This document shows, piece by piece, positions 35,111 through 42,661 of a stretch of 64,000 nucleotides of DNA. Below the pieces are notes generated by a model. It ran no database searches, was not told the DNA's origin, and worked only from the letters and a program-made list of their open reading frames with translations. Source of the stretch: Nakamurella panacisegetis (GTDB lineage: Bacteria > Actinomycetota > Actinomycetes > Mycobacteriales > Nakamurellaceae); contig NZ_LT629710.1 of assembly GCF_900104535.1 (NCBI RefSeq), positions 4,685,501-4,749,500 of the forward strand, read 5' to 3'. A program made the position numbers and the translations under genes. Numbering within the stretch: the stretch's first letter is position 1; every line of letters starts with the position of its first letter.

Positions 35111-37474
35111 TCAGTCGAAGGCGTCCAGGAACCGGTTCCGGAAGGCGTCCATGGGCCAGACCGGCCCGTTGCGGGCCGGCAGCAGACCCGGGGTCCAGTT
35201 CCAGGCCGCGACCCGGTTCGTCACCGCCGGGTCGCGGGCGATGATGGTGATCGGGACTTCGTGGCCGGCCGAAGCCCCGCTGACGATCGTCGCCGGCTGA
35301 TGGTCTCCGAGCAGGACCAGGACCAGATTCTTGTCACCGTAGGTCTGCACGAACGAGATCAGCGACGTCAGCGAGTACCGGATGGACTGCCCGTAGGCCG
35401 CCCCGACCTGGTCGGCCCGGCTCCAGACCGCTTGCGGCGATTGTCCTTTGGCCGGCATGCCGTCGAAGATCGAACCGTCCCCGATGGCGTTCCAGTCGAC
35501 CGTCGTCGGTAGCGGCGCCCACGGTGTGTGACTGGAGACGAGGTCGATCTCGGCCATCACGGGGGCGTGCCGCGGATCGGCCAGCTCGAGTTCGCGGAAG
35601 CGGGCCAGGATGTACTGATCCGGCATGTCGGCGTAGCTGAACGCCGGTCCCCGGTACCCCAGGTTCCGGACGTCGTAGACCTGGTCGTAGTGATAGAAGG
35701 TTCTGCCTTCGGGCCAGTCCCGATCGTTCGACGGGACGTCGCCCACCGTGCGCCAGCCGGCCCGGCGAAAGGCATCGCTCAGGGTGAACCGATCGCTGGC
35801 CATCAGCTGGTCGTACCGCTGCTGACTGTCCACCCAGAGCCCCGACTGCAGGGTGGAATGGGCGAGCCAGCTGATACCGCCGAAGGTGGGCGAGGTGAGA
35901 AATGCGCTCTCGGACGAGAACCCGGCCGCCTGCAGACTCCTGCTCCCGGCGGTCAGGACGGCCCGCACCCCGGGCGAGAACGGCGAGTCCTGTACCGCGA
36001 CCTGACCGTAGCTCTCGACGAAGGCGAAGATGACGTCCTTCCCGGCCAGGCCGGTCAGCAGACGCCCACCCGGAGTGATGGCCACCGGGTCGCTGGAGAT
36101 CGCGGCCGAGAACGTCTGCTCGTCCTGCAGACTGTGGCGGATCTGCCCGACCTGCTCCACGGCCAGGGCGGCCGCACCGGCGGAGGCGATGGGCGCCCCG
36201 GAGATCTGGACCCCGATCGCGGCCGCGACGACCCAGAGCGCGGCTCCGGCCGTGACGACACGCGCCGACACGCGGCGCCGGCGGGCCACCAGGCCGGTCA
36301 GTCGACGCATGGCCAGCGGCACGAAGACGCACACGGCGACGACCAGGGCGGCCGCCAGCACCACGACGGCCACCCCGGCGAACCGACCGATCGAATCGGT
36401 CAGCACGCCGACCGCTGGCGGCAGGTAGCTCCAGTCCGAGACCGGGTCGAACGGCCGGTCCAGCGCGGCCAGGAAACCCATGTCGAGAATCCTCACGACG
36501 GTCAGCAGGCCGAGCAGCACACCGACGATCGTGGCCACGGCCCGGCCGATTCGAGGCGGCAGCAGCAGAACCAACCCGAACAGGGCCACCCCTTCGATCG
36601 GTATGCGGGTGAACTGGGCCGGGGTCAACCGATCCACCTGCTCGGGCCCGAGCAGGGCGAACCAGACCAGCAGAATCGCCCCCGTCGTGGTGACCCCGGC
36701 GGCCCATCGTTGCCGACGCGAGCGGCTCGCCACCGGACCGGACGCACCGCCGGGCTGCGCCCGGCCGGACCCGGGCCGGCGGTGTCTCCCCAGCCAGAGG
36801 ACGTCCCGCCCGAACGACTCGGTCAACAACGTCAGGGCGAGCAGGACCACGACGACCGCCGCCGGCCTCGGCAGGGCGCCGGACGCGACCAGGGTCAGCG
36901 CGATGCCCTGGATCGCGGCCACCACCTTGCACCAGTAGCGCGGCGGCGCGGGCTGCCGGAGCCACGGCCACCACCACCCGGCGGCCACGAACAGGTAGCG
37001 GGCCGCGCCGATCAGCAGGACCGGAGCCCCGACGAACCGGACGTCGTACACCGAGAGCGCCAGGATCGCGAACGCGTCGACCTCCATGTCGAACCGGGCC
37101 CCGACCGCCGACACGGTTCCGGTCCGGCGCGCGACCCGTCCGTCGACCGCGTCCAGCACCAGCGCGGCCACGGCCAGCAGGACCAACGCCGGGGTCGGCA
37201 CGGCCCGGGTGAACGAGTCGGCCACCATCGCCGCCACGCCGCCGACCAGGGCGGCCCGGACCAGGGTGACCCCGTCGGCCGGCCCCGGACCCGCAGCGCC
37301 GGAACGGATCAGCCCCCGGGCCAACGCGATCACCGTGGTGAGGCCGCACGCGATCCCGACCGTCCAGCCCGGTCCGTGGAGTCCGGTGGAACCGGCCAGG
37401 ACCCCGAGGACCGTGAGCTGCCCGGCCAATCCGGCCACGGCGGCGGGGATCGGGCCGATCTGAACCTTCCGCAC
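35111..37474 (-). CDS. CDP-alcohol phosphatidyltransferase fused to a sulfatase/LTA-synthase-like membrane protein
   Basis: This 787-residue protein has three modules. Residues 1-220 are a CDP-alcohol phosphatidyltransferase with the full D-x2-D-G-x2-A-R-x8-G-x3-D-x3-D motif at 108-133. Residues about 255-425 are a set of membrane helices. Residues about 475-787 are an alkaline-phosphatase-fold domain: VIFAFVESYG (metal Glu), SPTFGGISWLAHSTL (likely Thr nucleophile), VSSHTPW and LLGDHQPA (metal Asp-His). The first module would swap CMP for an alcohol on a diacylglycerol; the last resembles lipoteichoic-acid-synthase-like phosphoglycerol transferases. GTG 37474 has GGAGG 5 nt upstream; a longer frame to 37576 would translate promoter repeats. 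It diverges from the five-gene operon at 37591. Confidence 0.85.
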   Translation of the reverse strand: MRKVQIGPIPAAVAGLAGQLTVLGVLAGSTGLHGPGWTVGIACGLTTVIALARGLIRSGAAGPGPADGVTLVRAALVGGVAAMVADSFTRAVPTPALVLLAVAALVLDAVDGRVARRTGTVSAVGARFDMEVDAFAILALSVYDVRFVGAPVLLIGAARYLFVAAGWWWPWLRQPAPPRYWCKVVAAIQGIALTLVASGALPRPAAVVVVLLALTLLTESFGRDVLWLGRHRRPGSGRAQPGGASGPVASRSRRQRWAAGVTTTGAILLVWFALLGPEQVDRLTPAQFTRIPIEGVALFGLVLLLPPRIGRAVATIVGVLLGLLTVVRILDMGFLAALDRPFDPVSDWSYLPPAVGVLTDSIGRFAGVAVVVLAAALVVAVCVFVPLAMRRLTGLVARRRRVSARVVTAGAALWVVAAAIGVQISGAPIASAGAAALAVEQVGQIRHSLQDEQTFSAAISSDPVAITPGGRLLTGLAGKDVIFAFVESYGQVAVQDSPFSPGVRAVLTAGSRSLQAAGFSSESAFLTSPTFGGISWLAHSTLQSGLWVDSQQRYDQLMASDRFTLSDAFRRAGWRTVGDVPSNDRDWPEGRTFYHYDQVYDVRNLGYRGPAFSYADMPDQYILARFRELELADPRHAPVMAEIDLVSSHTPWAPLPTTVDWNAIGDGSIFDGMPAKGQSPQAVWSRADQVGAAYGQSIRYSLTSLISFVQTYGDKNLVLVLLGDHQPATIVSGASAGHEVPITIIARDPAVTNRVAAWNWTPGLLPARNGPVWPMDAFRNRFLDAFD

Positions 37475-37486
37475 TGCGCCTCCGTC

Positions 37487-37522
37487 TGTAGGGATGTGAC
37501 CGCCTGTGGGGATGTGACCGCC
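37487..37522. repeat. two tandem 18-nt direct repeats in a divergent promoter region
   Basis: Positions 37487-37504 and 37505-37522 are identical except for one base (TGTAGGGATGTGACCGCC and TGTGGGGATGTGACCGCC). They occupy the 116-nt region between the divergent CDP-alcohol transferase fusion and the BchC-like gene. Tandem sites of this size in a shared promoter could bind a regulator of both transcripts. Confidence 0.55.
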
Positions 37523-37590
37523 GGCGACTGGCCGTACCCGGAGAACGCCGGATCGGCCGAAGTCGTTCAAACGCACCGAGGAGGTGGCAG

Positions 37591-38589
37591 TTGCCCGCCC
37601 AGGCCCGTGCCTTCTGGCTGAGCGAACCGGGAACCGGCGAGATCCGGGCGGTCGAACTGGCGGCGGCCGGCCCGGGCGATGTCGTCGTCCGCACCCTGTT
37701 CTCCGGGGTGAGCCGGGGAACCGAATCGCTGGTCTTCCGTGGCCGCGTTCCGGTCGCCCAGTTCCAGGCGATGCGGGCGCCGTTCCAGGACGGGGATTTC
37801 CCGGGGCCGGTGAAGTACGGCTACCTGAACGTCGGCGTCGTCGAGTCAGGTCCGCCGGACTTGTTGGGGCGGAACGTGTTCTGCCTGTATCCGCATCAGA
37901 CCCGCTACGTGGTGCCGGCCGCGTCGGTGTTCGTCGTGCCCACGGATGTGCCGCCGCGTCGCGCGGTGCTGGCCGGGACGGTGGAGACGGCGATCAACGC
38001 CTTGTGGGATGCGGCCCCGTTGATCGGCGACCGCATAGCGGTGATCGGGGCGGGCATGGTCGGGTGCTGCGTGGCCCGGTTGCTGTCCCGGTACCCGGGG
38101 GTCGCGGTCACGCTGGTCGACATCGACCCCGGTCGGGCTGTGGTGGCGGCCGCGTTGGGTGCGGAATTCGCCCGGCCCGAGGACGTCACCGGCTCCTACG
38201 ACCTGGTTGTGCACACCAGCGCCACCTCAGCCGGTCTGCAGCTGGGGATCGACCGGTTGGCCAGGGAGGGAACGGTGATCGAGCTCAGCTGGTACGGCGA
38301 TGCCGAGGTGCGGCTCGCCCTGGGCGGCGCCTTCCACACGGGCCGGCTGGCCGTGCGGGCAAGTCAGGTCGGCGTGGTGGCACCGTCCCGCCGGGCTGGC
38401 CGTACTCCGGCCGATCGGCTGCGCCTGGCATTGGAGTTGTTGCGCGACAGCGCGTTCGATGCGCTGCTGACCGGCTGGTCACCGTTCGCTGATCTACCCG
38501 CCGTGATGGCCCGGCTGGTCGACGGCGACCTGCCGGCCATCTGCCACACCATCACCTACGACCGAGAGCAGGCCACGTGTTCAGTGTGA
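37591..38589 (+). CDS. BchC-like medium-chain dehydrogenase without obvious zinc ligands
   Basis: The 332-residue MDR protein starts at TTG 37591 with GAGGAGG about 6 nt upstream. The usual catalytic Cys position reads [14 protein letters not shown], and no four-Cys structural zinc lobe is present. [17 protein letters not shown] and [43 protein letters not shown] closely recall the BchC type of bacteriochlorophyllide dehydrogenase family. The NAD(P) Rossmann motif is GAGMVG. It begins an operon with a pterin-synthase homologue, GT4, flippase-like protein and RibD-C reductase, so it likely oxidises an intermediate of that pathway. Its end overlaps the next start by 13 nt. Confidence 0.82.
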
Positions 38590-38975
38590 CCGTCCGCGAC
38601 CACATGATGATCGCCCACAGCTTCCGCGGTGCCGTCTTCGGCCCGGCCCAACGACTGCACGGCGCGACGTACGTGGTCGACGCCACGTTCCGCAGCCCGG
38701 TGCTGAACTCCGACGACATCGTGGTCGACATCGGTCGGGCCGCGCAGGAGCTGCAGGCCGTGGTGGGCGAACTCGGATATCGCAATCTCGACGAGGAGCC
38801 CGATCTGGCCGGCGGCAACACCACCACCGAGGTGCTGGCCAGGGTGATCGCCGACCGGCTCGCCGATCGTGTGCGCGCGGGCCGGTTCGGCGGCGGCACG
38901 GAGAATCTGGACGGCGTGACGGTGACCCTGCGCGAGTCGCACATCGCCTGGGCGAGCTACGAGCGACCGTTGTGA
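38577..38975 (+). CDS. 6-pyruvoyl-tetrahydropterin synthase / QueD homologue, atypical active site
   Basis: The 132-residue protein (GTG 38577) has the T-fold layout of 6-PTPS/Que[80 protein letters not shown] and a final [17 protein letters not shown]. Zinc in the family is held by three His: one in the AHSF position and two in an HGHxY motif. Here HGHxY is HGATY, so the third ligand is Ala, and no Cys occupies the usual catalytic position before it. It may therefore act on a different substrate or bind metal differently. Start and stop overlap both neighbours (GTGA with the GT4 gene). Confidence 0.82.
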
Positions 38976-40090
38976 CGGTGGCCGATCCGGCGGTGCTCAA
39001 CGGGCGGTCGGACAGCGTCCGCGGGGGCGAGGTCGCCCGGCACGTCGTCGACGTCATCGTTCCGGCCGGCATCGACGATCCGCGGCGGCCCAGCGGCGGC
39101 AACCGGTACGACCGGAGGGTCTGCGACGGCCTGCGGGGGCGGGGCTGGCAGGTGCGCGAGCACGCCGTGCCCGGCCGCTGGCCGCAACCCGAGGACGACG
39201 CCTTCCGTGCCCTGGCCGAGGTGATGGCCCGGTTCCGGGACGGGGCGGTGCTCCTGATCGACGGGCTGATCGCCTCGGCCGCCCCGGATGTGTTGTTGCC
39301 GCACGCCATCCGGCTCCGGCCGGTGGTCCTGGTCCACATGCCGGCGGCCGACCGCAGCGCCGCGGCCGCCGAGCGGGAGCACGCCGTGCTGCAGACCGCC
39401 GCCGCCGTGATCACGACGAGCCATTGGACCCGCCACGACCTGCTCCGCCGGTACGGCCTGGGCCCGGCGCTGGTCCACGTCGCCCACCCCGGTACCGATC
39501 AAGCCGTTCCGGCTTCCGGATCAGTCCGCGGCGGCCGGCTCCTGTGCGTGGGCGCGGTGATCCCGGGCAAGGGACACGACGTGCTGTTCGAGGCATTGGC
39601 CGGCCTCGGGCCGCGAGCGTGGACGTGCACCTGCGTCGGCGCGCTGGACATCGAACCGGGCTTCGTTCATCGGCTCCGCCGGCAGTTGCGCGGCGCCGGA
39701 CTGGGCGGACGCGTTCGATTCACCGGCCCGCTGGGTGAACCTGAGTTGTCGGCGGCCTACGCGGACGCTGACCTGCTGGTGCTGGCCTCGGCCGCTGAGA
39801 CCTACGGCATGGTGGTCGCCGAAGCGCTGGCCCGAGGCCTTCCGGTGGTGGCGACCGCCGTCGGTGGACTGCCGGAATCGTTGGGCCGGGCGAAGGACGG
39901 CACGGTCCCCGGAATCCTCGTCCCGCCGGCCGACCCGCGCCCGCTGAGCGCAGCGATCGACCATTGGCTGGGCGATCCCGGGCTGCGGGAGCGACTGCGC
40001 CACGCGGCCGGGCAGCGCCGGGAAACGTTGGCCGCCTGGTCCGACACGGTCGCGAAGATCTCGGCCGTGCTGATCAGGGCGGGCGCGTGA
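38972..40090 (+). CDS. GT4-family glycosyltransferase
   Basis: The 372-residue protein has the GT-B fold of family 4. The N-terminal domain includes [29 protein letters not shown], typical of retaining transferases that bind acceptor there. The C-terminal domain has [25 protein letters not shown] and the E-x7-E nucleotide-sugar motif in [32 protein letters not shown]. No membrane helix is present. GTG start and TGA stop both overlap neighbouring genes by 4 nt, placing it firmly inside the operon. Acceptor is unknown; the adjacent pterin-synthase-like and RibD-C-like genes suggest a heterocycle or lipid-linked product. Confidence 0.9.
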
Positions 40091-41034
40091 GGGGCGGCCG
40101 GGTGGCCGGCGCCGCCATCCTCGCACTGTTGGTGTGGCGCCTTGGCACCGGACCGTTTCTGGACGGACTTGCCGGGATCGACGTCGGGCCGCTCGCGCTC
40201 GCGGCCGGGATCACGGCCATCACCACCGCCGCGGCGGCCTGGCGCTGGACCCTGGTCGCGCGTGGCCTGGGCCTGACGATCCGGCCGCGGGACGCGATCG
40301 TGGCCTACTACCGCTCACAGTTCCTCAACAGTGTTCTGCCCGGCGGCGTGCTCGGCGACCTGCACCGCGGTCTGCGGCACGGACGTCGAACCGGTGACGT
40401 CGGCCGTGGACTCCGGGCCGTCGGCTGGGAGCGTGGCGCCGGCCAGGTCGTGCAGATTGCCGTGGTGCTGGTCGTTCTCCTCGTGCTGCCGTCACCGGTG
40501 CCCCACTGGCTGCCGTTGACCGGGGTGGCCGCCGTCTCGGCCGTCCTGATCTCGATCGCCCGCCTGGTGCGGCGGCCCGACAAGGAGGACACCCGCCACC
40601 CGAGCCTGCGCCGGGCCGCGGACGAGATCCGCGACGGCATCCTGGCCCGGCCGGCATGGCCGGGCATCCTGCTGGCCTCCCTGGCGGTGGTGGCCGGGCA
40701 CGCCGCCGTGTTCCTCGTGGCCTGCCGGACGACCGGGGTGACGGCACCCGTTGGTCGGCTGCTCCCGATCGGGCTGCTCGTGTTGCTGGCCATGGGGTTG
40801 CCGACGAACGTCGGCGGGTGGGGCCCGCGCGAGGGCATGGCGGCCTGGATGTTCGCGCTGGCCGGGTTCGGGGCGAGCACCGGCGTGGGCGTCGCCGTGG
40901 CCTACGGCGTCTTGTCCCTGGCCGCGACCCTGCCCGGCGCGGTGCTGTTGTTCGCCGACCGGAGGGGCCGCCCGGCGGCGGAACCGGTTCGTACGCAAGC
41001 TGTCTCCGCGAAAGGGGATACCGATGGTGGCTGA
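40087..41034 (+). CDS. lysylphosphatidylglycerol-synthase-type transmembrane protein (flippase-like)
   Basis: The 315-residue protein has about seven to eight membrane helices and the LPG_synthase_TM/UPF0104 signatures: AAWRWTLVARGLGLTIRPRDAIVAYYRSQFLNSVLPGGVLGDLHRGLRHG and LPIGLLVLLAMGLPTNVGGWGPREGMAAWMFALAGFG. The catalytic GNAT-like domain of MprF is absent, so it matches the flippase half. In such a cluster it probably translocates a glycosylated lipid across the membrane (inference). GTG 40087 overlaps the GT4 stop (GTGA), and its 3' end overlaps the RibD-C gene by 11 nt. Confidence 0.85.
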   Translation: MRGGRVAGAAILALLVWRLGTGPFLDGLAGIDVGPLALAAGITAITTAAAAWRWTLVARGLGLTIRPRDAIVAYYRSQFLNSVLPGGVLGDLHRGLRHGRRTGDVGRGLRAVGWERGAGQVVQIAVVLVVLLVLPSPVPHWLPLTGVAAVSAVLISIARLVRRPDKEDTRHPSLRRAADEIRDGILARPAWPGILLASLAVVAGHAAVFLVACRTTGVTAPVGRLLPIGLLVLLAMGLPTNVGGWGPREGMAAWMFALAGFGASTGVGVAVAYGVLSLAATLPGAVLLFADRRGRPAAEPVRTQAVSAKGDTDGG

Positions 41035-41761
41035 TCGTCCGTACACCGTCCTGAGCTGCTGCATGTCCATCGACGGGTACCTGAGCGGGCCGTCCGATGT
41101 CCGGTTGCTCTTGTCCAACCCGGACGACCTGGATCGGGTCGACGAGGTCCGCTCGACGTGCGACGCGATTCTGGTCGGCGCGCGCACCGTCCGGGTAGAC
41201 AACCCGCGATTGCTGCTGCGGGATCCCGCCCGGCGGGCTCGGAGAGTGGCCCGGGGCCTGGCTCCGTCCCCGGCCAAGGTCACCGTGACCGCCGGCGCGC
41301 ACCTGGATCCGGCGGCCGGGTTCTTCACCTCCGGTGACGGAGAGAAGCTCGTCTATTGCGCCAGTCCGTCCCTGGGGAAGGCGCGCGGCCGGTTCGGGTC
41401 GTTGGCCACCGTGATCGACGGGGGCTCGGCCGTGAACATGTGCCGGCTGAGCCACGACCTGCACGATCGCGGGATCGGGCGACTGCTGGTCGAAGGGGGT
41501 GCAAGCATCCACACCCAATTCCTGACCGCCGATCTGGCCGACGAACTCGATGTGGCGGTCGCGCCCTTCTTCGTCGGGGACTCGCGGGCGCGCCACTTCG
41601 TCGGTGACGGCCGGTTCCCCTGGCACCCCGGACACCGGGCGACGCTGGCCGAGGTCCGGCAGGTCGGCGACGTCGCGCTGATGCGGTACGCGCTGTCCGA
41701 CCGGTTCGAGACGTCGACCGAGCGGATCCCAGTGAATAGCTTGGGCGCTCGATTTGCATAG
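41024..41761 (+). CDS. RibD C-terminal (DHFR-fold) reductase family protein
   Basis: The 245-residue protein starts at ATG 41024 after AAAGGGG. It has the pyrimidine-reductase half of RibD without the deaminase half: YTVLSCCMSIDGYLSG, CDAILVGARTVRVDNPRLLLRDP, VYCASPSLGKARGRF and GIGRLLVEGGASIHTQFLTADLADELDVAVAPFFVGD. The VGARTVRVDNP and LVEGGASIHTQF blocks are the NADPH/substrate site of 5-amino-6-ribosylaminouracil reductase-like proteins. No riboflavin genes are nearby. Together with the pterin-synthase-like gene it implies a GTP-derived heterocyclic intermediate. Last gene of the operon. Confidence 0.85.
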   Translation: MVADRPYTVLSCCMSIDGYLSGPSDVRLLLSNPDDLDRVDEVRSTCDAILVGARTVRVDNPRLLLRDPARRARRVARGLAPSPAKVTVTAGAHLDPAAGFFTSGDGEKLVYCASPSLGKARGRFGSLATVIDGGSAVNMCRLSHDLHDRGIGRLLVEGGASIHTQFLTADLADELDVAVAPFFVGDSRARHFVGDGRFPWHPGHRATLAEVRQVGDVALMRYALSDRFETSTERIPVNSLGARFA

Positions 41762-41857
41762 TTAGACGTCTTGAGCGTGGTCCGCCCGTCTTGTCTACTT
41801 GGAACCGGTAGAGCAGCCTGCCGACAGCAGTCTCCGCATTTCCGAAGGGACCACGCC

Positions 41858-42661
41858 GTGGACATCAACTCCACCGCTTCGTCGTACGAGCTCACCACCG
41901 CCGCACAGCAAGACGCACTCGACCGGTTGATCACGGCCAGAACGTCCGGTTCGGAGTCGGCCATCCGGTCGGCCGAACACGCGGTGATCTCCACCCATCT
42001 CGCCTTCGCCACCGCCCTGGGGCGGCGCTACCGCGGTCGCGGGGTCGACCAGGACGATCTGCAGCAACTGGCCCGGCTGGGACTGGTCAAGGCGGTCAAG
42101 CGATGGCTGCCGGATGTCGGCAACGACTTCGCCCCGTACGCGTACCCGACCATCCTGGGTGAGATCAAGCGGTACTTCCGCGACCACAGCACCATCATCC
42201 GGGCCCCCCGGGGGCTCCGCGAGCTGCACACCGAGACCGACGCCGTCGCCGAGGGTCTGGAACAACGACTGGGCCGGCCGGCCAACGACCACGAACTGGC
42301 CGAAGCCGTCGGCGTCACCCCGCAGCGGATCCGCCAGCAACGGGCGGCGGTCCAGGCCTGCCGGTCACTGAGCCTCGACCTGCGTGCCGTGCAGGGCTCC
42401 GCCGACCAGGTGCCCAGCGAGTCGGCCGAGTCCGAGTTGGGGCGGGTGGAGAACCTGATGATGGTCCGTCAGGCCATCGTCGGCCTGACCGACCGGGACC
42501 GGCAGGTCCTGGCCCTGCGGTACTTCCAGGAGAAGAGCCAGGCCCAGATCGCCGCGGTCATCGGCGTCAGTCAGATGCAGGTCTCCCGGATCCTCCGCGG
42601 CATCCTGACCAAGCTCCGGGACGAGTTGGCCGACCGGCCGGCTCTCCAGTTGGCCAGCTGA
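41858..42661 (+). CDS. SigB/SigF-type alternative sigma-70 factor (second copy)
   Basis: The 267-residue protein starts at GTG 41858, 7 nt after AAGGGA. Region 2 reads VDQDDLQQLARLGLVKAVKRWLPDVGNDFAPYAYPTILGEIKRYFRDHSTIIRAPRGLREL and region 4 KSQAQIAAVIGVSQMQVSRILRGILTKL. It is clearly paralogous to the factor at 7044-7862, including the leader (GAAGGGACCA then GTG start after four to seven bases). No anti-sigma gene is adjacent. It lies 96 nt after the heterocycle/glycan operon on the same strand, so read-through is possible. Confidence 0.92.
   Translation: MDINSTASSYELTTAAQQDALDRLITARTSGSESAIRSAEHAVISTHLAFATALGRRYRGRGVDQDDLQQLARLGLVKAVKRWLPDVGNDFAPYAYPTILGEIKRYFRDHSTIIRAPRGLRELHTETDAVAEGLEQRLGRPANDHELAEAVGVTPQRIRQQRAAVQACRSLSLDLRAVQGSADQVPSESAESELGRVENLMMVRQAIVGLTDRDRQVLALRYFQEKSQAQIAAVIGVSQMQVSRILRGILTKLRDELADRPALQLAS

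Follow-up and report, generated by a model that had tools for sequence, protein, structure and literature searches.

A locus of six genes at positions 35,111 to 41,761 of the window, the whole 64,000-nucleotide stretch of Nakamurella panacisegetis DNA analyzed here, combines a PTPS homologue with a BchC-like dehydrogenase, a GT4 glycosyltransferase, a flippase, a RibD-C reductase and a CDP-alcohol phosphatidyltransferase fused to an LtaS/EptA-like domain. These genes almost certainly form a single conserved biosynthetic pathway. In the explanation that accounts best for the whole, to which we assign a probability of about 0.6, this pathway leads from a GTP-derived pyrimidine to a pterin- or pyrimidine-like compound that carries a sugar and is probably attached to the membrane. 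A sequence-only reading of the same DNA had proposed a heterocycle- or sugar-modified phospholipid or a related exported compound; that proposal is partly supported and is still the one that fits best, albeit for a product inferred from its genes.

How could such a compound be made? In the window genome GTP would be converted to the diaminopyrimidine APy by an unlinked RibBA protein, and in a Streptomyces-type version of the cluster a GTP cyclohydrolase II (GCHII) of the Met/His type would make formylated FAPy, from which a creatininase-family protein would take off the formyl group. RibD-C would then reduce the diaminopyrimidine, and the T-fold PTPS-IV protein together with the dehydrogenase could reshape the reduced product into a pterin-like or ribityl-pyrimidine compound. 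GT4 would glycosylate this compound, and a methyltransferase would methylate it in most relatives. The CDP-alcohol transferase may make the lipid partner or head-group donor. Once the flippase had carried the product across the membrane, a phospho-head group might be transferred outside by the LtaS-like domain.

Conservation of the gene cluster

All six open reading frames (ORFs) of the locus, which lies in a 5.01-Mb genome on a single contig, are confirmed, one on the minus and five on the plus strand. The plus-strand neighbours overlap by 13, 4, 4 and 11 nucleotides in order, the last overlap being 8 nucleotides if the RibD-C gene starts at the GTG at 41,027. Five overlapping genes diverging from a CDP-alcohol transferase fusion had been noted in the sequence-only reading, and both the layout and the gene names, with which Pfam and NCBIfam agree, are upheld.

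When species genomes were scanned for the PTPS protein, at least 527 encoding relatives were found, the best 80 of which were analyzed, so that the set leans to close relatives (51 of the 80 loci are from Streptomyces or Micromonospora). Partner genes were sought by tblastn at 1e-8, and the counts are lower bounds, several contigs ending inside the cluster. GT4 accompanies PTPS in all 80 loci, the BchC-like dehydrogenase in 79, the flippase in 74, the CDP-alcohol transferase and a methyltransferase in 69 each, GCHII in 64, RibD-C in 42 (38 at ≥60% identity and four near 30%), a creatininase in 33 and the LtaS-like part in 26. In addition, PTPS is patchy within the genus (five of 17 genomes), and in all five carriers PTPS is joined by dehydrogenase, GT4, RibD-C and CDP-alcohol transferase. 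When 396 genomes were drawn evenly from the phylum, 82 matched PTPS, but only ten of them, our own included, at 56% identity or above. Fifteen stretches from the genus and phylum draws were examined. Of those outside the genus, one with a 74% identical PTPS has the full gene set (L120) and a short contig shows GCHII, RibD-C, flippase, GT4 and PTPS (L122). At 37–42% PTPS identity (L123–L126), RibD-C (28–31%), dehydrogenase, PTPS and GT4 still stand side by side, with no match to flippase or CDP-alcohol transferase; in L123 (10,016–11,941) GT4 and methyltransferase are fused in one frame of 641 residues, and the PTPS of this cluster still has HGH. The four loci with PTPS of about 30–34% identity (L127–L130) gave no BchC or GT4 match, and in L127 RibD-C and GCHII matches lie 5–7 kb away. 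A cluster with a 67% identical PTPS was also seen on a contig binned as Burkholderiaceae (L068), which may reflect horizontal transfer or a binning error.

The cluster is not confined to one phylum. Of 24 plasmid records that match PTPS 17 were examined; the BchC-like dehydrogenase adjoins PTPS in 15 of them, GT4 is matched at 1e-3 in 12, with GT4 annotated further off in two Haloarcula records, and the methyltransferase is matched in ten and annotated or Pfam-matched in the four haloarchaeal ones. Rhizobiaceae plasmids (L143 and L145, and L149 by tblastn) carry genes of sulfatase type and for flippase, CDP-alcohol transferase, GCHII, dehydrogenase, PTPS, GT4, methyltransferase and RibD-C. In Thiodictyon (Chromatiaceae) dehydrogenase, PTPS, GT4, methyltransferase, RibD and CDP-alcohol transferase are present, as is an LtaS-like match. 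CDP-alcohol transferase, dehydrogenase, PTPS, GT4, methyltransferase, flippase and RibD were also seen on a Microbacterium plasmid of 59 kb that is typed as mobilizable. The gamma- and alphaproteobacterial clusters L140, L143 and L145 include, in addition, a gene for a cytochrome b, which Pfam assigns to the b561 type in L143. On two Haloarcula plasmids CDP-alcohol transferase, a GTP cyclohydrolase annotated as 'IIa', dehydrogenase, PTPS and methyltransferase follow in a row. In H. sinaiiensis and Halomicrococcus the order is dehydrogenase-PTPS-GT4-methyltransferase, no GTP cyclohydrolase being annotated in the stretch read; a creatininase-family gene and a CDP-alcohol transferase are nearby in H. 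sinaiiensis. Since the haloarchaeal PTPS proteins are only 31–33% identical and keep an H-x-H pair, these clusters represent the same arrangement and not close orthologues. The genes thus travel together across phyla, in a looser form in haloarchaea, and their co-occurrence, judged by the 80-locus counts and the cross-phylum clusters, is not due to chance, an outcome that would have refuted the sequence-only reading.

The coordinates are collected in Table 1. A promoter scan of the stretch between the divergent starts found no sigma-70 consensus. A gene for a SigB/F/G-type sigma factor (41,771–42,661) begins 10 nucleotides past the RibD-C gene in the same direction. This sigma gene and a neighboring aminotransferase gene were left out of the cluster, as they have matches in one (at 24%) and two (one of them at 24%) of the 80 related loci, respectively.

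Table 1. Features of the locus, in window positions
Feature	Positions	Strand	Basis
Fusion gene, CDP-alcohol phosphatidyltransferase (N-terminal) and membrane LtaS/EptA-like domain (C-terminal, predicted)	35111..37576	-	ORF, 821 aa; PF01066; D..DG..AR motif; model and Foldseek
Transmembrane and LtaS/EptA-like domain (predicted), aa 290-821	35111..36709	-	alignment A1 (23 sequences), structure model, Foldseek
CDP-alcohol phosphatidyltransferase domain, aa 101-246	36839..37276	-	PF01066; invariant motif in alignment A2
Intergenic stretch between divergent starts, 116 nt if the fusion starts at GTG 37474	37475..37590		
BchC-like medium-chain dehydrogenase, TTG start	37591..38589	+	ORF, TIGR01202
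PTPS-IV homologue, SCO6650 orthologue	38577..38975	+	PF01242, FGPAQ, PDB 3d7j match
GT4 glycosyltransferase	38972..40090	+	PF00534/PF13692
LPG-synthase-TM-type flippase, GTG start	40087..41034	+	PF03706
RibD_C reductase	41024..41761	+	PF01872, best NCBIfam TIGR01508

The PTPS homologue

The PTPS protein of the window (PF01242, 81 bits) has SCO6650 (3d7j) as its sole PDB match at E 0.001, with 2.3e-58 over the full length, and is by sequence the SCO6650 orthologue and a member of the orphan PTPS-IV group. We take the 3d7j protein to contain no zinc and to have no PTPS activity. FGPAQ is the signature given for PTPS-IV, alongside motifs for PTPS-I, II and III, in the accessible part of PMC5445326. 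This signature is present in the window protein and in 78 of the 80 related loci, and the PTPS-I, II and III motifs (CxxxHGH, CxxxxxHGH and ExxHGH) were found in none of the 80. The residue after HG, a His in zinc-bearing relatives, is Ala (HGA) in the window and in all 80 loci, in which the Cys position of CxxxHGH is likewise Ala; the C-terminal ESH motif retains its Glu. The window protein lacks the canonical zinc/Cys site.

Could the locus simply hold ordinary queuosine, folate or riboflavin genes that lie next to envelope genes by chance? Database labels such as 6-carboxytetrahydropterin synthase, RibD and RibA would favor this, but it is very improbable in view of the missing PTPS-I/II/III motifs, the conservation across phyla and the genome itself, which has separate RibBA and RibD-type genes and a single QueC match of 21.1 bits, below the cut-off of 22 and over 57 positions. 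Assignment of PTPS and RibD-C to ordinary queuosine or riboflavin synthesis, which the sequence-only reading had named as another outcome that would overturn it, is thus not what was found. Ten of the 17 genus genomes have QueC matches at or just over the cut-off; all of these matches score 21–27 bits, nearly all cover about 57 of 210 positions within long frames, and the short matches are read as other enzymes. Queuosine, biopterin and folate roles of PTPS were accordingly rejected by motif, queuosine also by the QueC search, QueE not having been searched for. With PTPS-IV placed in the present route, many genes annotated as '6-carboxytetrahydropterin synthase' and given a queuosine GO term would seem to be mislabelled; the label was seen on most of the annotated plasmid records examined, and the relatives in species genomes number at least 527.

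Cofactor F420 is made from a 5-amino-6-ribityl-pyrimidine precursor, which counts in favor of a role of PTPS-IV in F420 synthesis. For archaea such a role is stated, as an unpublished observation, in the accessible part of PMC5041015. For the lineage of the window this role was rejected and is given hardly any weight, as the occurrence of CofG does not track that of PTPS: among the 17 genus genomes CofG is found in 11 and PTPS in five, CofG occurring in three of five PTPS carriers and in eight of 12 non-carriers, and the two carriers with no CofG match (G407 and G409) are 98 and 96% complete.

Orphan PTPS-IV-like copies of 64–66% identity were seen on two Streptomyces plasmids (L144, 9,001–9,426, and L152, 8,001–8,399), both with MBL-fold, cupin and sigma/BTAD regulator genes nearby.

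Proposed supply and reduction of a GTP-derived pyrimidine

The linked GTP cyclohydrolase that the sequence-only reading had suggested looking for is missing from the window but exists in relatives, and the 64 linked GCHII proteins differ at position 120 of the Streptomyces-type enzyme, which we take to be the product switch of SCO6655, Met giving FAPy and Tyr giving APy. Met, seen in the Streptomyces-type query, occupies this position in 30 of them, His in two and Tyr in 32. All 32 Met/His loci, and not one of the 32 Tyr loci, have a linked creatininase; another locus with a creatininase (L027) has no GCHII in the stretch. A close RibD-C occurs in 30 of the 32 Tyr loci. Similarly, the alphaproteobacterial clusters with GCHII (L143, L145, L148 and L149) have Tyr and no creatininase match in four of four checked. 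The Streptomyces cluster protein is a creatininase by Pfam (206.7 bits), and the creatininase-annotated BrbF of Sinorhizobium deformylates FAPy according to the accessible part of PMC9478397. In a GCHII tree a long branch (1.65 changes per column, support 100/100) splits the cluster proteins in two, with 31 Tyr-type proteins on one side and 30 Met rows, two His rows, a divergent Tyr row (L070) and the two RibBA proteins of the window genome on the other; in this tree, in which outside rows are few and long branches meet, the split would most simply represent two recruitments. Furthermore, GCH III is a family unrelated to GCHII that opens GTP to FAPy, and the Haloarcula cyclohydrolase of L155 belongs to it (PF05165, 271.7 bits); GCH III is present in two of the four haloarchaeal clusters examined. 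Since Tyr-type GCHII, Met/His-type GCHII and GCH III stand beside the same core, the pathway is tied to a GTP-derived pyrimidine. This separate recruitment of GTP-opening enzymes is the strongest argument for such a pyrimidine as the start of the pathway, which we consider very likely.

The window genome has two RibBA genes (L082 and L083), unlinked to the cluster, which would supply APy. The absence of riboflavin genes from the neighborhood, remarked upon earlier, holds within the window, both GCHII genes of the genome lying about 1.6 and 2.1 Mb away. By inspection, the L082 gene follows a RibE-like frame, and the best RibD_C match elsewhere in the genome lies in a frame of 382 residues (L085). 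As two RibBA genes and a RibD-type gene are located elsewhere, ordinary riboflavin synthesis was rejected for the locus. The second RibBA (L083, 799–2,007, near genome position 2,615,416) reads CNHH where the other reads CDCG, replacing a presumed zinc cysteine by His, and lies between ThiG-like and sugar-isomerase-like frames (by inspection). A creatininase of the same genome (L084) was rejected as a pathway member; by inspection it adjoins nucleoside-phosphorylase-like and amidohydrolase-like frames, and it is not near the cluster.

The RibD-C protein of the window (PF01872, 115.1 bits) has as its best NCBIfam model TIGR01508, the archaeal diaminopyrimidine 5'-phosphate reductase, with 105.6 bits under a cut-off of 186.45, and its PDB matches include 6p8c and diaminopyrimidine phosphate reductases. 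Judged by these matches, it resembles reductases of 2,5-diamino-6-ribosylamino-pyrimidinone 5'-phosphate. Alternatively, a RibD-C/GCHII module and a PTPS/GT4 module could make two compounds and share only their regulation. RibD-C is linked in only 42 of the 80 loci, and the RibD-C/GCHII pair can stand alone, as in three Streptomyces genomes where the reductase and a Tyr-type GCHII form a separate divergent pair (L131, 7,331–8,611, L132 and L138). Two separate products are nevertheless improbable, as the GTP cyclohydrolases linked to the PTPS core differ in origin and RibD-C stands beside this core in Actinomycetota as well as in alpha- and gammaproteobacteria.

Nine genomes with no close RibD-C in the cluster were searched for unlinked copies. 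Three Streptomyces genomes (L044, L061 and L047) have a RibD-C of 50–51% identity elsewhere, beside a Tyr-type GCHII of 63–65% identity. Copies of 52–58% were found for L078 and two Actinomadura genomes and one of 44% with an internal stop for L027, and no GCHII adjoins these copies in the five stretches read (L133–L137). In one Actinomadura stretch (L135, 8,101–9,214) the RibD-C copy overlaps a downstream RibD-type deaminase gene, the reductase again preceding the deaminase, as it precedes the deaminase-like part in a single frame of L131, the reverse of the usual RibD order.

Proposed glycosylation, lipid and export functions

The minus-strand fusion gene would give the pathway its lipid aspect. 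Its N-terminal domain (PF01066, CDP-OH_P_transf, 36.9 bits) contains DAVDGRVARRTGTVSAVGARFDMEVD, which is conserved in alignment A2 and corresponds to the CDP-alcohol phosphatidyltransferase motif D(x)2DG(x)2AR(x)8G(x)3D(x)3D. PDB searches with the whole fusion and with this part gave short or weak matches only, which do not reveal the alcohol. As homology begins near the GTG at 37,474, this codon, and not 37,576, is suggested to be the probable start. The C-terminal 532 residues comprise a predicted multi-helix membrane part followed by an alkaline-phosphatase-superfamily domain (model mean pLDDT 77.6). Foldseek lists MCR-1, LtaP and LtaS as first matches of this half, with GacH and EptC lower, at TM-scores of 0.23–0.57, which speak for the fold level only, and 10–16% identity; sulfatase Pfam models did not match the fusion at E 0.001. 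Conserved motifs are FVESYG, SPTFGG-SWLAH, SSH-PW and LGDHQP (alignment A1). The model thus predicts an LtaS/EptA-like fold, and both parts share one ORF in seven of the 26 related loci that have the LtaS-like part.

The flippase matches LPG_synthase_TM (PF03706, 107.6 bits). The dehydrogenase matches BchC (TIGR01202) with 60 bits, far under the cut-off of 291; no ADH_N Pfam match was found, and the usual zinc-ligand set was not seen on inspection. The glycosyltransferase matches PF00534/PF13692 and, weakly (5.4e-05), the UDP-glucose:tetrahydrobiopterin glucosyltransferase 5zer, one of 18 GT4-type structures listed.

In a different explanation, for which this last match also speaks, the product is a soluble glycosylated, methylated pterin comparable to the pterin glycosides of cyanobacteria and RibD-C acts as a dihydropterin reductase. 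The genes for CDP-alcohol transferase, flippase and the LtaS-like part would then be accessory or belong to a neighboring envelope function. RibD_C proteins have a DHFR-type fold, the loci L123–L126 keep RibD-C, dehydrogenase, PTPS and GT4 while flippase and CDP-alcohol transferase are not matched, and another cluster (L147) keeps dehydrogenase, PTPS, methyltransferase and RibD-C. However, the CDP-alcohol transferase is linked in 69 of the 80 loci and recurs in the clusters of alpha- and gammaproteobacteria, of Microbacterium and of haloarchaea, and the recruited cyclohydrolases are of type II or III and not of the pterin-forming type I. A soluble pterin is therefore unlikely, though the most serious of the alternatives, and a glycosylated product that is membrane-attached or exported is preferred with some confidence. 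That it is a true heterocycle-bearing phospholipid is possible but doubtful.

Several observations weigh against the pathway as proposed. The window has no linked GCHII, creatininase or methyltransferase, and the methyltransferase of L058 used as query gave no match in the window genome, in a search that had no positive control. A close RibD-C and a creatininase never occur together in one cluster of the 80 loci. In the GCHII tree the Met rows and the two His rows each make up a clade of their own, and the rule linking Met/His to creatininase therefore rests on one or two events. The best-scoring model for the Streptomyces creatininase is MftE and not ArfB, and none of its scores reaches an NCBIfam cut-off. 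Of the five Streptomyces genomes searched for an unlinked reductase, two (L005 and L029) have no RibD-C above 34%. The RibD-C of L131, the only one scanned of the three unlinked Streptomyces copies, is fused to a deaminase-like part; it may thus function in riboflavin-type synthesis and is at best a candidate reductase for the Streptomyces version. A locus with 56% PTPS identity (L121) shows only dehydrogenase, PTPS and a partial GT4 match, and the two Streptomyces plasmid copies of PTPS (L144 and L152), the exceptions among the plasmid records, have no cluster. Sulfatases are also among the Foldseek matches of the LtaS-like domain. Moreover, no flippase or LtaS-like match was found in several clusters (e.g., L141, L142, L147, L148 and the four haloarchaeal ones), so the export half is not universal.

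Relation to known systems

The sequence-only reading could match the locus to no described pathway. This stands for the whole route; its parts are known, namely the crystal structure of SCO6650 and the neighborhood of PTPS-IV with PF00925 and PF01872, in print since 2017 (accessible part of PMC5445326). In the openly licensed literature searched, the whole route, its lipid and export half and the rule connecting switch residue and creatininase were not found. What is gained is that SCO6650/PTPS-IV and an FAPy-forming GCHII now share a single conserved route with genes for GT4, methyltransferase, CDP-alcohol transferase, flippase and the LtaS-like part, which leads to a testable product class. 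A product in which a heterocycle is indeed bound to lipid would represent a new type of membrane compound. More tentatively, it could be imagined that bacteria and haloarchaea share a route to a new lipid class, a glycosylated, methylated pterin or ribityl-diaminopyrimidine that is joined to a membrane lipid by a phosphodiester bond and exposed on the outer side, with the GTP opening supplied separately by two GCHII lineages and the archaeal GCH III and with PTPS-IV as a metal-free T-fold enzyme of new chemistry; we regard this as speculative, the odds being against it.

The closest known system is the SCO6648–SCO6655 type cluster of Streptomyces coelicolor, the gene numbers being those we assign by order; Streptomyces loci share the core of the window in the same order. 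SCO6655 was reportedly described in a 2006 study as an FAPy-forming GCHII with Met120 as switch. The Streptomyces-type version has a Met-type GCHII, a creatininase and a methyltransferase, whereas in the window RibD-C and the LtaS-like fusion are present and GCHII is absent. In the Streptomyces-type version no close RibD-C is linked, although a relative near 30% was seen in three of the 33 loci with a creatininase; one of these 33 has the LtaS-like domain. SCO6652 is, by order, presumably the methyltransferase of the cluster. Its expression is up by 4.3 and 4.1 log2 units in the 48 h and 72 h second mycelium of S. coelicolor (accessible part of PMC3610822), and that of SCO6655 anticorrelates with predicted riboflavin flux (r -0.61), as does that of SCO2687 (-0.52; accessible part of PMC2853524). 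Both observations fit a late, non-riboflavin role and do not prove it.

The PTPS-IV group, AGeNNT cluster-node 62 in PMC5445326, has the FGPAQ signature and the PF00925/PF01872 neighborhood in common with the window family; RibD_C is present in the window and GCHII is not, and both are linked in related loci. The accessible main text on PTPS-IV in that paper contains neither 'glycosyltransferase' nor PF03706, PF01066 or PF00534.

With the transferases of the LtaS, GacH and EptA-MCR type the C-terminal domain of the fusion shares the predicted fold and the conserved E, H and DH motifs, but in the window this domain is fused to a CDP-alcohol phosphatidyltransferase. The early steps of riboflavin and F420 synthesis in archaea follow the ArfA-ArfB-ArfC route. 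This route, together with BrbF of Sinorhizobium (accessible part of PMC9478397), resembles the proposed one in leading from GTP over FAPy and APy to a reduced pyrimidine, and GCH III is found in two haloarchaeal clusters; in contrast, the window cluster adds PTPS, GT4 and lipid genes, and the riboflavin-type genes of its genome are located elsewhere.

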